In this document: positions 9,666 through 25,905 of the stretch, piece by piece
Numbering within the stretch: the stretch's first letter is position 1
Layout of the letters: each line of letters starts with the position of its first letter
Assembly: GCA_015523485.1 (NCBI GenBank)
Contig: WAKH01000014.1
Location: 1 to 35,344, forward strand
From: Thermodiscus sp.
Lineage (GTDB): Archaea > Thermoproteota > Thermoprotei_A > Sulfolobales > Acidilobaceae
Direction of reading: 5' to 3'
DNA: 35,344 nucleotides
Program-made: the position numbers and the translations under genes
Notes under the pieces: model-generated
The model's database searches: none
What the model was told of the DNA's origin: nothing
What the model saw: the letters and a program-made list of their open reading frames with translations, nothing else

Positions 9666-9761
9666 GCCGCCGTAGCTCAGCGGGCAGACCCCCTGCGCGG
9701 GGCCCAAAGCGCTGGCCTTGTAAGCCAGTGGTCGCGGGTTCGAATCCCGCCGGCGGCTCCA
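9666..9761 (+). tRNA. tRNA-Thr(UGU), CCA encoded, with a 20-nt non-canonical intron in the D-stem (9688-9707)
   Basis: GCCGCCG...CGGCGGC acceptor, CTGGC-CTTGTAA-GCCAG anticodon arm, GCGGG-TTCGAAT-CCCGC T-arm. Removing ACCCCCTGCGCGGGGCCCAA restores D-stem GCTC/GAGC. Confidence 0.92.
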
Positions 9762-13371: not shown

Positions 13372-13486
13372 TGGTGCCGCCGCCGGGATTTGAACCCGGG
13401 ACCTCCGGATCTCCCAGGTCCCCGCGACTTCGGCAGGGACTACGCCGTATGAGTCCGGCGCTCTGCCAAGGCTGAGCTACGGCGGC
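13372..13486 (-). tRNA. tRNA-Met(CAU) with a 37-nt canonical 37/38 intron (13411-13447), CCA encoded
   Basis: Reverse strand GCCGCCGTAGCTCAGCCTTGGCAGAGCGCCGGACTCATA[intron]ATCCGGAGGTCCCGGGTTCAAATCCCGGCGGCGGCACCA; BHB with CTCA/TGGG helix and bulges TA|C and AG|A. Confidence 0.92.
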
Positions 13487-21255: not shown

Positions 21256-23277
21256 ATGGCAAAAGTGGATGACATTAAAACCATAACTGTGGTTGGCGCC
21301 GGAACTATGGGTCATGGAATCGCGGAGGTCGCCGCTATAGCGGGATACAAGGTATACCTAGCAGACATCAAGAAAGAGATCCTCGACAACGCCCTTGAAA
21401 AGATCAAGTGGAGCCTCTCCAAGCTCGCAGAGAAGGGGGTTGTAAGGGAGAGCGTAGACTCCGTAATGGCGAGGATAACTCCCATCGTGAACCTGGACGA
21501 GAACGGTAACTATACGGAGGAGTTCGCAAAAGCCCTAAAGGAGACCGACGTCATGATCGAGGCTATTATCGAGAGACTAGACCTCAAGCAGAAGCTATTC
21601 GCATTCGCAGACGAGCACGCGCCAGAACACGCGATACTAGCCACGAACACAAGCAGCTTACCGATAACCGAGATCGCAGCCGCAACCAAGAGGCCCGAGA
21701 AGGTAGTCGGAATGCACTTCTTCAACCCACCACCGCTAATGCCACTAGTAGAGATCATACGCGGAGAGAAGACGAGCGATGAGACAGTCGAGGTAACAGT
21801 AGCACTGTCAAAGAAGTTCGGAAAGCAGCCAGTAGTAGTGAAGAAGGATGTACCCGGATTTATAGTAAACAGGGTCCTAGCAAGGTTCCTAAACACTGGC
21901 TGCCAGCTAGTGGCTAAGGGCAAGGCGACTATAGAGGAGGTAGACGCCACCGTAAAGTATGTCCTAGGCCTCCCAATGGGTATATTCGAGCTCAGCGACT
22001 ACTCAGGCATCGACGTATTCTACTACGTATTCACCGCTATGAAGGAGAGAGGATTCAAGACAACACCATGTCCGCTATACGAGGAGAAGTACAAGGCGAA
22101 GGAATTCGGTATGAAGTCGGGCAAGGGATTCTACACCTACCCAGCACCAGGAAAATACGCTAGGCCAAACATACCCAAGGACCTGGCTGGCAAGGTAGAC
22201 CCGGTACTAGTACTAGCCCCAGCGGTTAACGAGGCCGCATGGCTCCTAAGGAACGATGTAGCCACCAAGGAGGACATAGACAAGGCAGTCAAGCTAGGCC
22301 TCGGATGGCCAAAGGGCGTCCTAGAGTTCGCAGATGAGTATGGTCTAGACAAGATAGTAGAGGCTCTAAAGAAGCTGAAGGAAGAACTAGGCCTCGAGGA
22401 GATGGAGCCAGATCCACTCCTAGTAGAGAAGGTTGAGAAGGGCGAGCTGGGCAGAAAGACTGGAAAGGGCTTCTACGAGTACGGCGAGGTTGAGGAGATC
22501 AAGAAGAAGACGATAATTATACGTAAGGAGAAGCCAATTGCGTGGATTATACTAAACAGGCCTAGGAAATACAATGCCCTAAGTCCAGAACTCCTAAAGG
22601 AGCTAGGAGAAGCACTAGACGAGCTAGAAGACGATGACGATGTAAGAGTAGTAATCCTGAAGGGAGAGGGCAGAGCCTTCAGCGCAGGAGCAGACGTAAC
22701 CGCATTCACCGGCGTAACTCCAATATCGATCGCCAAGTTCTCAAGGAGATTCCAGGAGCTAACGCTGAAGATGCAATTCTACACCAAGCCGATTATCGTC
22801 GCAATCCACGGTTACGCGTTAGGAGGAGGACTAGAGATAGCAATGAGTGGTGACATAAGGATAGCAAGCGAGGATGCAATGCTAGGCCAGCCAGAGATTA
22901 ACCTGGGCTTCATACCGGGAGCGGGCGGCACACAGAGGCTGCCAAGACTTGTAGGTAGGGGTAAGGCTAAGGAGCTTATCTTCACCGGAGACATGATCCC
23001 TGCAAGCGAGGCGCTGAAGATAGGTCTAGTAGACAAGGTGGTCCCACCAGAGAGGCTAGACCAGGAGGCCAGAGCCCTAGCACTCAAGATCGCCGAGAAG
23101 CCGCCGCTAGCCCTAATGGCAGCAAAGTACGCTATAGAATACGGTCTAGAGTCCAACATATGGGCAGGCCTATCACTAGAGGCACACCTATTCGGCCTGC
23201 TATTCTCAACAGAGGACGTAATCGAGGGCGTAATGGCCTTCTTAGAGAAGAGGAAGCCAAAGTTCAAGGGCAAGTAG
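21256..23277 (+). CDS. Fused 3-hydroxyacyl-CoA dehydrogenase / enoyl-CoA hydratase (crotonyl-CoA hydratase type)
   Basis: VVGAGTMGHGIAEVAAIAGY, GMHFFNPPPLMPLVEIIRG, C-terminal IKILNRPRKYNALS-like segment, GRAFSAGADVTAF, IHGYALGGGLEIAMSGDIRIASEDA, LGFIPGAGGTQRLPRLVG. Confidence 0.93.
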   Translation: MAKVDDIKTITVVGAGTMGHGIAEVAAIAGYKVYLADIKKEILDNALEKIKWSLSKLAEKGVVRESVDSVMARITPIVNLDENGNYTEEFAKALKETDVMIEAIIERLDLKQKLFAFADEHAPEHAILATNTSSLPITEIAAATKRPEKVVGMHFFNPPPLMPLVEIIRGEKTSDETVEVTVALSKKFGKQPVVVKKDVPGFIVNRVLARFLNTGCQLVAKGKATIEEVDATVKYVLGLPMGIFELSDYSGIDVFYYVFTAMKERGFKTTPCPLYEEKYKAKEFGMKSGKGFYTYPAPGKYARPNIPKDLAGKVDPVLVLAPAVNEAAWLLRNDVATKEDIDKAVKLGLGWPKGVLEFADEYGLDKIVEALKKLKEELGLEEMEPDPLLVEKVEKGELGRKTGKGFYEYGEVEEIKKKTIIIRKEKPIAWIILNRPRKYNALSPELLKELGEALDELEDDDDVRVVILKGEGRAFSAGADVTAFTGVTPISIAKFSRRFQELTLKMQFYTKPIIVAIHGYALGGGLEIAMSGDIRIASEDAMLGQPEINLGFIPGAGGTQRLPRLVGRGKAKELIFTGDMIPASEALKIGLVDKVVPPERLDQEARALALKIAEKPPLALMAAKYAIEYGLESNIWAGLSLEAHLFGLLFSTEDVIEGVMAFLEKRKPKFKGK

Positions 23278-23762: not shown

Positions 23763-23839
23763 TTCCACGCCTGGAGTATTGTGGACTCGACGGGGAAACC
23801 CTTATAATATTCCGATGGCTGGTTAGAAATCAAACGGGT

Positions 23840-24060
23840 AGCCGGGTCGTCTAGCGGCCAAGGATGCGGGGCTTTGGATAGCGGGCCCCACCCCGCTCCT
23901 CTTCCTCTTAACAAGCTAATGAGGAGGAAATACACGGACTATTGACGGGAGGCTAGTACTCTTTATAAAGCCCACGGGATTGTATACAATTATGGCAACA
24001 GGGGTGGGGCCCGCTAGAAGAACCCCCGTGACCGGGGTTCGAATCCCCGCCCGGCTACCA
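23840..24060 (+). tRNA. tRNA-Gln(UUG) with a 145-nt intervening sequence at 37/38 (23878-24022), CCA encoded
   Basis: AGCCGGG...CCCGGCT acceptor, CGGGG-CTTTGG|...|C-CCCCG anticodon arm, CGGGG-TTCGAAT-CCCCG T-arm; BHB with CTTT/GAAG central helix, bulges GG|A and AA|C, and a 16-bp inner helix. Confidence 0.9.
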
Positions 24061-24099: not shown

Positions 24100-24981
24100 T
24101 TACCCGATGTAGTTGACCAGGATTATACCAACCACGGCCAGTACACTTGCTAGTAGGTGTATCACCTGGGGTTTTTCCTTGAGTTCGTGGCTTAGTGCGA
24201 GCGTGAATAATAGCGTGAAGAAGGGGAAGAGCGATATTATCACCGCGGCTCCAGCTACTGTGACGAGGTGTAATGCATAGTACCTTGATAACTGTGCGAA
24301 GGCAACCACTACCGCTGCGAGCGTCATGTAATAGAAGTGTTTCCGCGGTAACGAGCGTGGATCGGGTATTCCCTTGTTTAGGAGGACGACTATTGGTATC
24401 GCTGATGTGTATGAGATTGCCACGCCGTATATTGGATCAGCGTTCATGTATCCTGAGGCGCTCCTCACTAGTACTGCTGTCATAGCGAATACTACTGTTG
24501 ATGCGAGTCCAGCTAGTATTCCTATTGAGGTCTTTCCACCATGCAGAGCTTCTCCTGATGGAGTGTGTGATACTAGGTAGACTGCTAGAACTACTAGTAT
24601 AATCCCGAGTAGTTGGAGAAGTGAGAGCTCCTCTCCTAGAAGTATCCATGCTAAGAGAGCGCTTACAATGACTGTTGGACTAGTGACTATAGACGCCGTT
24701 GTGGCACCAGTATACGTTATAGAGTAGTAGAATAGTAGTCTCCCGATTACGAAGTTTAGCAGACCTGCTATAACGTATAGGAGTAGAGCTTTCATGGTCA
24801 TAACTGGTGGTCCCCTGCTTACTGCTACTATCCAGAGGAGGGGGCTACCGACGAGAAGGCTGATGAGTAGGTTCTGCATTGGTTTCAGCCTTACAGCAGC
24901 TGCCCTGACTAGTGCGTCGCTTAGCCCGAAGAATAATCCAGCCATCAGTGCGAACGTGTAGCCTAGTAGTTCAGCGTCCAT
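24100..24981 (-). CDS. EamA/DMT-superfamily permease
   Basis: Ten TM segments in two repeats; YSITYTGATTASIVTSPTVIVSALLAWILLGEELSLLQLLGIILVVLAVYLV. Confidence 0.85.
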   Translation of the reverse strand: MDAELLGYTFALMAGLFFGLSDALVRAAAVRLKPMQNLLISLLVGSPLLWIVAVSRGPPVMTMKALLLYVIAGLLNFVIGRLLFYYSITYTGATTASIVTSPTVIVSALLAWILLGEELSLLQLLGIILVVLAVYLVSHTPSGEALHGGKTSIGILAGLASTVVFAMTAVLVRSASGYMNADPIYGVAISYTSAIPIVVLLNKGIPDPRSLPRKHFYYMTLAAVVVAFAQLSRYYALHLVTVAGAAVIISLFPFFTLLFTLALSHELKEKPQVIHLLASVLAVVGIILVNYIG

Positions 24982-25071: not shown

Positions 25072-25905
25072 TTATATAATTTTTACTTCGATTCCTAAAT
25101 CATCCATAATAGACTTGATCTTATTACGTACTTCAGCCTTAGCCGACTTCTTCTGGATAAGGGCAACCTCAGGCTCGCGTGGCCACGTTTTCTTAACAGA
25201 TTCTATGATAACTTTCTCATTGGTATCCTTCAAGGCATACCTCGGAATAATGTGGCCCAGACAATACTCCGACTCCAAGTGTATCTTTGTGAACTTTCTA
25301 GGATAATGTGTGTCGCCGAATCCTACGGCAGGGGTGCAATCCACTATGCCCTTCTCGATTACTTCAGCAACGGCCTCGGCCATTGCCCAGTGAGCCCTCT
25401 CATCAACCCAGTTCTCCTTAGTAGAACCGATCTCGATGAATACTAGGGGCTTCCTAGGCCTTGTTGGACCATGATGGGTGGCCTCGAGGGTCAACTCGTA
25501 GGTGTCTAGGAGACCCTTTTGAGAAGCTGTAATCTTGTAGTTTGAAAGGAGGGTTCTAGAGAGCATAGGCGCTGATACTGATAATGTGTATGGCTCGCCC
25601 CCCAACGTTGAAGAGGTTGGATTCCCAGTATGGTGTGTAGTAAGGCTCGGCCTATTGCTAACAGCGCTATGCTTGGAGAGGACTATAACAGCGTCTGCCT
25701 CGGGGTCTGGTGTATTGTCTAGGAAGTCGAAGTAGATTTGCTCAACCTCGTAGCCTGCTAGGACAGCTCTATTAGGTAGTTCATAACAGGTTACAGCATT
25801 AGCGCATTTGGACGGGTTCCATTTTTGGAGTTGGAGGAGTTTCTCCGCGGCCCCGCTGCCTGCGGGGTCGCTCACGTTATAGACTATTGCTAACTTTGGC
25901 TTCAT
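25072..25905 (-). CDS. dtdA: D-aminoacyl-tRNA deacylase, archaeal type
   Basis: AIVYNVSDPAGSGAA, VLSKHSAVSNRPSLTTHHTGNP, LTLEATHHGPT, FIEIGSTKENW, VGFGDTHYPRKFTKIHLE. Confidence 0.9.
   Translation of the reverse strand: MKPKLAIVYNVSDPAGSGAAEKLLQLQKWNPSKCANAVTCYELPNRAVLAGYEVEQIYFDFLDNTPDPEADAVIVLSKHSAVSNRPSLTTHHTGNPTSSTLGGEPYTLSVSAPMLSRTLLSNYKITASQKGLLDTYELTLEATHHGPTRPRKPLVFIEIGSTKENWVDERAHWAMAEAVAEVIEKGIVDCTPAVGFGDTHYPRKFTKIHLESEYCLGHIIPRYALKDTNEKVIIESVKKTWPREPEVALIQKKSAKAEVRNKIKSIMDDLGIEVKII

Follow-up and report, generated by a model that had tools for sequence, protein, structure and literature searches.

Whether a tRNA gene carrying a long insert between positions 37 and 38 is an ordinary intron-containing gene or a pair of adjoining halves, each transcribed on its own, is the question raised by the tRNA-Gln(UUG) gene of the archaeon Thermodiscus sp. 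(assembly GCA_015523485.1, contig WAKH01000014.1), located in the 35,344-nucleotide stretch of forward-strand DNA that was analysed here and is hereafter called the window. The original prediction regarded it as a tandem split or semi-split gene. We consider a tandem-split gene derived from a homing intron to be the most likely explanation, and a probable one. Its observed basis is the anatomy of the locus, the relation of the insert to a family of introns, the presence or absence of a homing endonuclease gene (HEG) at corresponding loci, and the conservation of the segment leading from an internal promoter-like site to the 3′ arm of the insert.

The 5′ exon (23840..23877, + strand, as for all features of this gene) ends with position 37, the 3′ exon (24023..24060) encodes CCA, and removal of the 145-nt insert (23878..24022) leaves a tRNA-Gln(UUG) of 76 nt with a manually verified cloverleaf, which differs from the minimum-energy structure computed for the spliced product without constraints. 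The junction has the hBHBh′ form of archaeal bulge-helix-bulge (BHB) tRNA introns, with a 4-bp core helix made of CTTT (23872..23875) and GAAG (24017..24020) and two 3-nt bulges, GG^A and AA^C. Directly adjoining the BHB are the 5′ GC arm TAGCGGGCCCCACCCC (23879..23894) and the 3′ GC arm GGGGTGGGGCCCGCTA (24001..24016), which are perfectly complementary over 16 bp and form the stem around which the insert folds (-60.6 kcal/mol, ViennaRNA). In 500 dinucleotide shuffles the longest perfect inverted repeat averaged 7.8 bp and at most reached the same 16 bp; the arm is nevertheless not ascribed to chance, since the sister species G004 has it unchanged and other species keep it with different sequence. 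A pyrimidine tract (23895-23910) follows the 5′ arm, and TATA-like elements are present both inside the insert (CTTTATAAAG, 23961-23970) and 5′ of the gene (CTTATAATAT, 23801-23810). The insert with its perfect arms, the BHB, the tract and both TATA-like elements had all been described correctly by the original prediction.

Neither ARAGORN with default settings nor Rfam scans at gathering score detected this gene, and a single tRNA-Gln(UUG) gene along with a single tRNA-Gln(CUG) gene was found in its genome (G000). A pseudogene in decay, or else an assembly artefact, might be imagined behind the UUG copy in a draft of 110 contigs and 88% completeness, but no other tRNA-Gln(UUG) was found there, and a second draft, that of G004, contains the same structure with 95% identity over the whole stretch, an insert of 146 nt and identical exons, so that this explanation, largely refuted already, is hardly credible. 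As for the type of gene, the two halves lie on the same strand 145 nt apart, unlike the halves of dispersed split genes, which occupy separate loci, while the insert, being longer than 100 nt, giving no C/D RNA match and having a long GC arm beside the BHB, has the build of tandem-split genes of the Aeropyrum pernix tRNA-Asp type.

An independent small RNA gene, for instance one for a guide RNA, could in principle be driven by the internal promoter-like site of an insert otherwise removed by cis-splicing, and C/D RNAs are known in archaeal tRNA-Trp introns. Yet no C/D or H/ACA match of Rfam fell inside the insert at a threshold as lax as E=10, inspection by eye revealed no clear C and D boxes, and the segment conserved between species ends in the 3′ arm and the exon, which makes such a gene very improbable. 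An embedded C/D or other known RNA was accordingly rejected for lack of any match above the cut-off.

The origin of the insert becomes apparent from the relatives. In the tRNA-Gln genes read there, site 37/38 is mostly empty or filled with 15-61 nt; inserts containing an antisense LAGLIDADG HEG occupy the same site in four genomes of the order representing three families. These are an insert of 726 nt in G003 (same genus, assembled across two contigs), one of 711 nt in G011 (another genus of the same family), one of 727 nt in G167 (family f7, on one contig) and, in G093 (family f9), a related HEG that runs into the contig end next to a tRNA-Gln 3′ half and is accompanied by a different arm. 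A true split of the G003 gene between different contigs was rejected, since the two contigs share 99 identical bases at their ends and combine into one insert; orthology of this locus with that of the window was judged by eye from the ends of upstream open reading frames. Versions without HEG measure 145 nt (G000), 146 nt (G004) and 169 nt (G002, same genus). The arms of G003, G011 and G167 begin with ATAGCGGCCC, as does that of the window, and arms starting with ATAGCGG are common to the window, G002, G003, G011 and G167, that is, homologous arms border the same insertion site. The HEGs encode two LAGLIDADG motifs within about 200 codons on the strand opposite to the tRNA; the frame is open in G003 (Pfam LAGLIDADG_3 3e-10, Hom_end 1e-6), interrupted by one in-frame stop in G011 and shifted in G167.

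Close relatives of this HEG are restricted to four of 214 genomes of the order (G003, G011, G167 and G093); a search beyond it, in 398 genomes drawn over the phylum, returned only G167, no viral carriers were found in viral_contigs, and no copy was present anywhere in G000 at E<=1e-5, the 145-nt insert being too short for one. HEG identity is higher between G011 and G167 (59-67%), which belong to different families, than between G003 and G011 (52%), which belong to the same one, and this fits horizontal movement. From this identity pattern we infer that the introns may be active in homing. Given the HEG-bearing relatives at the same site with shared arms, the insert of the window is best read as a HEG-less member of a mobile BHB-intron family, a membership that we regard as highly probable and that the original prediction had missed. 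Other HEG-bearing tRNA introns, with the HEG in sense direction, were encountered in tRNA-Phe(GAA) of G079 (662 nt) and G112 (654 nt) as well as in a Trp-like tRNA of the latter genome (806 nt), the corresponding loci being L225 442-1178 (+), L232 785-1513 (-) and L237 636-1531 (-).

Descent from such an intron is also compatible with a different fate of the transcript. The gene may simply retain an ordinary but unusually long cis-spliced BHB intron after HEG loss, with the TATA-like site as the fading antisense promoter of the HEG; a single precursor would then be synthesized from the 5′ promoter and the insert removed by splicing endonuclease. In support of this, HEG-bearing versions exist at the same site, insofar as orthology can be judged by eye, and introns of 0-61 nt are the rule at this site in relatives. 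We hold this alternative to be possible rather than probable.

A promoter weight matrix (PWM) built from the 5′ flanks of 29 tRNA genes of the same genome assigned 7.7 to the insert site ACTCTTTATAAAGCCC (23958..23973), which is mid-range for the tRNA promoters of this genome, and 6.0 to the promoter-like site of the 5′ half, AACCCTTATAATATTC (23797..23812). Spacing is equal for both, 43 nt before the 3′ arm and 43 nt before the tRNA start, respectively. At the expected placement the insert site is significant by shuffling (p=0.015), and its score is reached at 1.1% of random window positions with the same placement; a search over the whole insert core, unrestricted as to placement, does not reach significance by itself (p=0.10). 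Sequence prediction thus places a promoter on the tRNA strand inside the insert, as far from the 3′ arm as a leader would require. When forward scores are added up over ten tRNA-Gln genes with long inserts, they amount to 45.8 as opposed to -2.2 +- 11.3 in shuffles (0/1000), and in the window the same place scores 7.7 forward and -1.5 antisense; both the signal across the whole set and this strand preference count against a fading antisense promoter. The tRNA-like spacing and the PWM and shuffle scores thus speak for the internal forward promoter postulated originally. Two further long-insert genes, from other lineages, likewise have a forward promoter-like site ahead of the 3′ arm, tRNA-Gln UUG of G047 (C4, L127; 155-nt insert, p=0.015) and tRNA-Gln CUG of G018 (C3, L128; 221-nt insert, p=0.10). 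The tRNA-Gln(CUG) gene of the Thermodiscus genome itself (L005, contig C40) has a 190-nt insert of similar build, in which a long GC arm is combined with a strong promoter-like site in antisense orientation, GATCCTTATAAGCCTT.

Comparison of G000 with G004 adds a second line of evidence. In the UUG insert the promoter-to-arm segment (23957..24000), which contains the leader predicted for the 3′ half, differs at 1 of 44 positions, while the freely diverging middle (23915..23956), where relatives carry the antisense HEG, differs at 9 of 42 (p=0.007). With both tRNA-Gln inserts combined, the figures are 4/83 versus 29/128 (p=4e-4); trailers after the 5′ arms show 0/31 differences compared to the same 29/128 (p=0.0014), and the arms show none. 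For 22 other tRNA genes the region -40..-1 differs by 0.5-3.6% and the region -120..-51 by 3.6-10.5%, and the conservation of the promoter-to-arm segment resembles that of the former. Such preservation is expected if the segment supplies a 3′ half with its promoter and leader, and is not expected for a fading HEG promoter; that after HEG loss this segment stayed conserved in two genes while the middle diverged therefore argues against the latter. The pyrimidine-rich trailer (23895..23914), a possible 3′ end of the 5′-half transcript, has 0/20 differences. That the tract (23895-23910) acts as terminator is a weak reading, as within the insert it can also base-pair with a stretch of purines.

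Several observations weigh against separate halves. Downstream of the 5′ arm there is no strong T-run terminator. The TATA-like element is a palindrome, and its place corresponds in HEG-bearing relatives to that of a presumed antisense promoter of the HEG; the CUG insert of the own genome scores higher in antisense (11.9) than in forward orientation (2.6), and the antisense sum over the ten genes (11.9 against -8.2 +- 11.7 in shuffles) is itself marginally elevated (p=0.045). Forward scores of G003 and G166 do not rise above chance, and among three sense-HEG tRNA introns taken as controls two score low and one attains 13.7 inside its HEG. The conservation test covers one species pair, with segment borders set after the alignment was seen. 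The 16-bp arm would serve cis-splicing equally well, and separate half transcripts are deduced from sequence and conservation.

A precedent bears on both accounts. Tandem-split tRNA-Asp(GUC) of Aeropyrum pernix, with an insert of 121 nt, a GC stem of 14 bp and an internal promoter, gave halves visible on northern blots (PMC3218864), but the full-length precursor was also detected even there (Chan et al. 2011, PMC3218864), and a later study indicated that cis-splicing could also occur. The likeness extends to adjacent halves on one strand, the 37/38 join, the canonical BHB, the internal promoter, the GC-rich stem (14 bp versus 16 here) and an insert above 100 nt (121 versus 145); the tRNA is another one, the halves demonstrated there are only predicted here, and a HEG origin was not reported there.

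For the gene of the window, separate transcription of the 3′ half appears probable, and the following sequence of events can be proposed. A mobile BHB intron would have homed to site 37/38 of tRNA-Gln in this order and subsequently lost its HEG. The 5′ promoter would now yield a 5′ half with its 3′ end within or beyond the pyrimidine-rich trailer, and the second promoter, inside the insert, a 3′ half starting about 10 nt upstream of the 3′ arm; the two RNAs would pair via the 16-bp GC arm, giving rise to the BHB, and cleavage by the tRNA splicing endonuclease with subsequent ligation would join the halves in trans. The enzymes involved would be those of archaeal tRNA splicing in general. Part of the RNA may be full-length read-through product and undergo cis-splicing.

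Complete separation is encountered in family f8 of the same order, where tRNA-Gln is split with halves at scattered loci (G042, G052, G115, G116 and G117; L138-L152). On the single contig of G042 two 5′ halves (102103-102158 and 963088-963128) are accompanied by one 3′ half (1009047-1009109), the arm of which pairs with both; G052 is similar, its two 5′ halves appearing to use one 3′ half, in G117 there are two halves of each kind, and in G115 and G116 the halves are 3.5-3.8 kb apart on opposite strands. The arms pair in trans over about 13-20 bp, and the best promoter-like site falls at -32 to -42 in five of six 3′ halves, that of G042 being at -26. Together with the internal forward promoter, promoter-to-arm and trailer conservation and the A. 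pernix precedent, these splits lend partial support to the predicted semi-split character of the gene, although its RNA may also be spliced in cis.

In the window the gene is flanked by a fused 3-hydroxyacyl-CoA dehydrogenase/enoyl-CoA hydratase (21256-23277, +), an EamA transporter (24100-24981, -) and a D-aminoacyl-tRNA deacylase (25072-25905, -). Two more intron-containing tRNA genes occur in it, tRNA-Pro(GGG) at 9666-9761 (+) and a second one at 13375-13486 (-).

Other known systems share separate features with this locus. Among archaeal BHB introns at large, HEG-bearing ones are known, and those of rRNA genes are likewise BHB-spliced with a LAGLIDADG gene in some members only; here the host is a tRNA, the HEG of the tRNA-Gln family is antisense and the window copy lacks it. 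Split tRNAs of Nanoarchaeum equitans (Gln(UUG) and two Glu tRNAs with one common 3′ half) are joined at a BHB as well, and the 3′ half shared by two 5′ halves of Glu recalls what appears in tRNA-Gln of family f8, while tRNA-Gln of N. equitans has its split at 32/33 and its halves far apart, not at 37/38 and 145 nt apart as here. In the open-access literature, most subscription papers being outside the search, we met neither HEGs in archaeal tRNA introns nor split tRNA-Gln outside Nanoarchaeum. Archaeal tRNA introns of 11-129 nt have been described and a mobile agent proposed (Chan et al. 2011, PMC3218864); for tRNA-Thr of Caldiarchaeum subterraneum a mobile element was also suggested as the cause of intron gain and gene splitting (PMC3293823), the agent there being plasmid-like integration and here a homing-endonuclease intron.

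For the origin of split tRNA genes, a homing endonuclease intron is the kind of mobile element envisaged by Chan et al. Only tentatively may such introns be viewed as a general agent splitting archaeal tRNA genes, by a route in which the intron would home to 37/38 and introduce an internal promoter together with a long GC arm, HEG loss would leave a tandem-split gene (as in the window, G004 and G002), and rearrangement would finally scatter the halves (as in family f8). Since one locus, with orthology judged by eye, exists in HEG-bearing and HEG-less states within one genus and another family is fully split, the question of tRNA splitting becomes testable. If the two halves are indeed transcribed separately and joined afterwards, this would suggest how split tRNA genes can arise.
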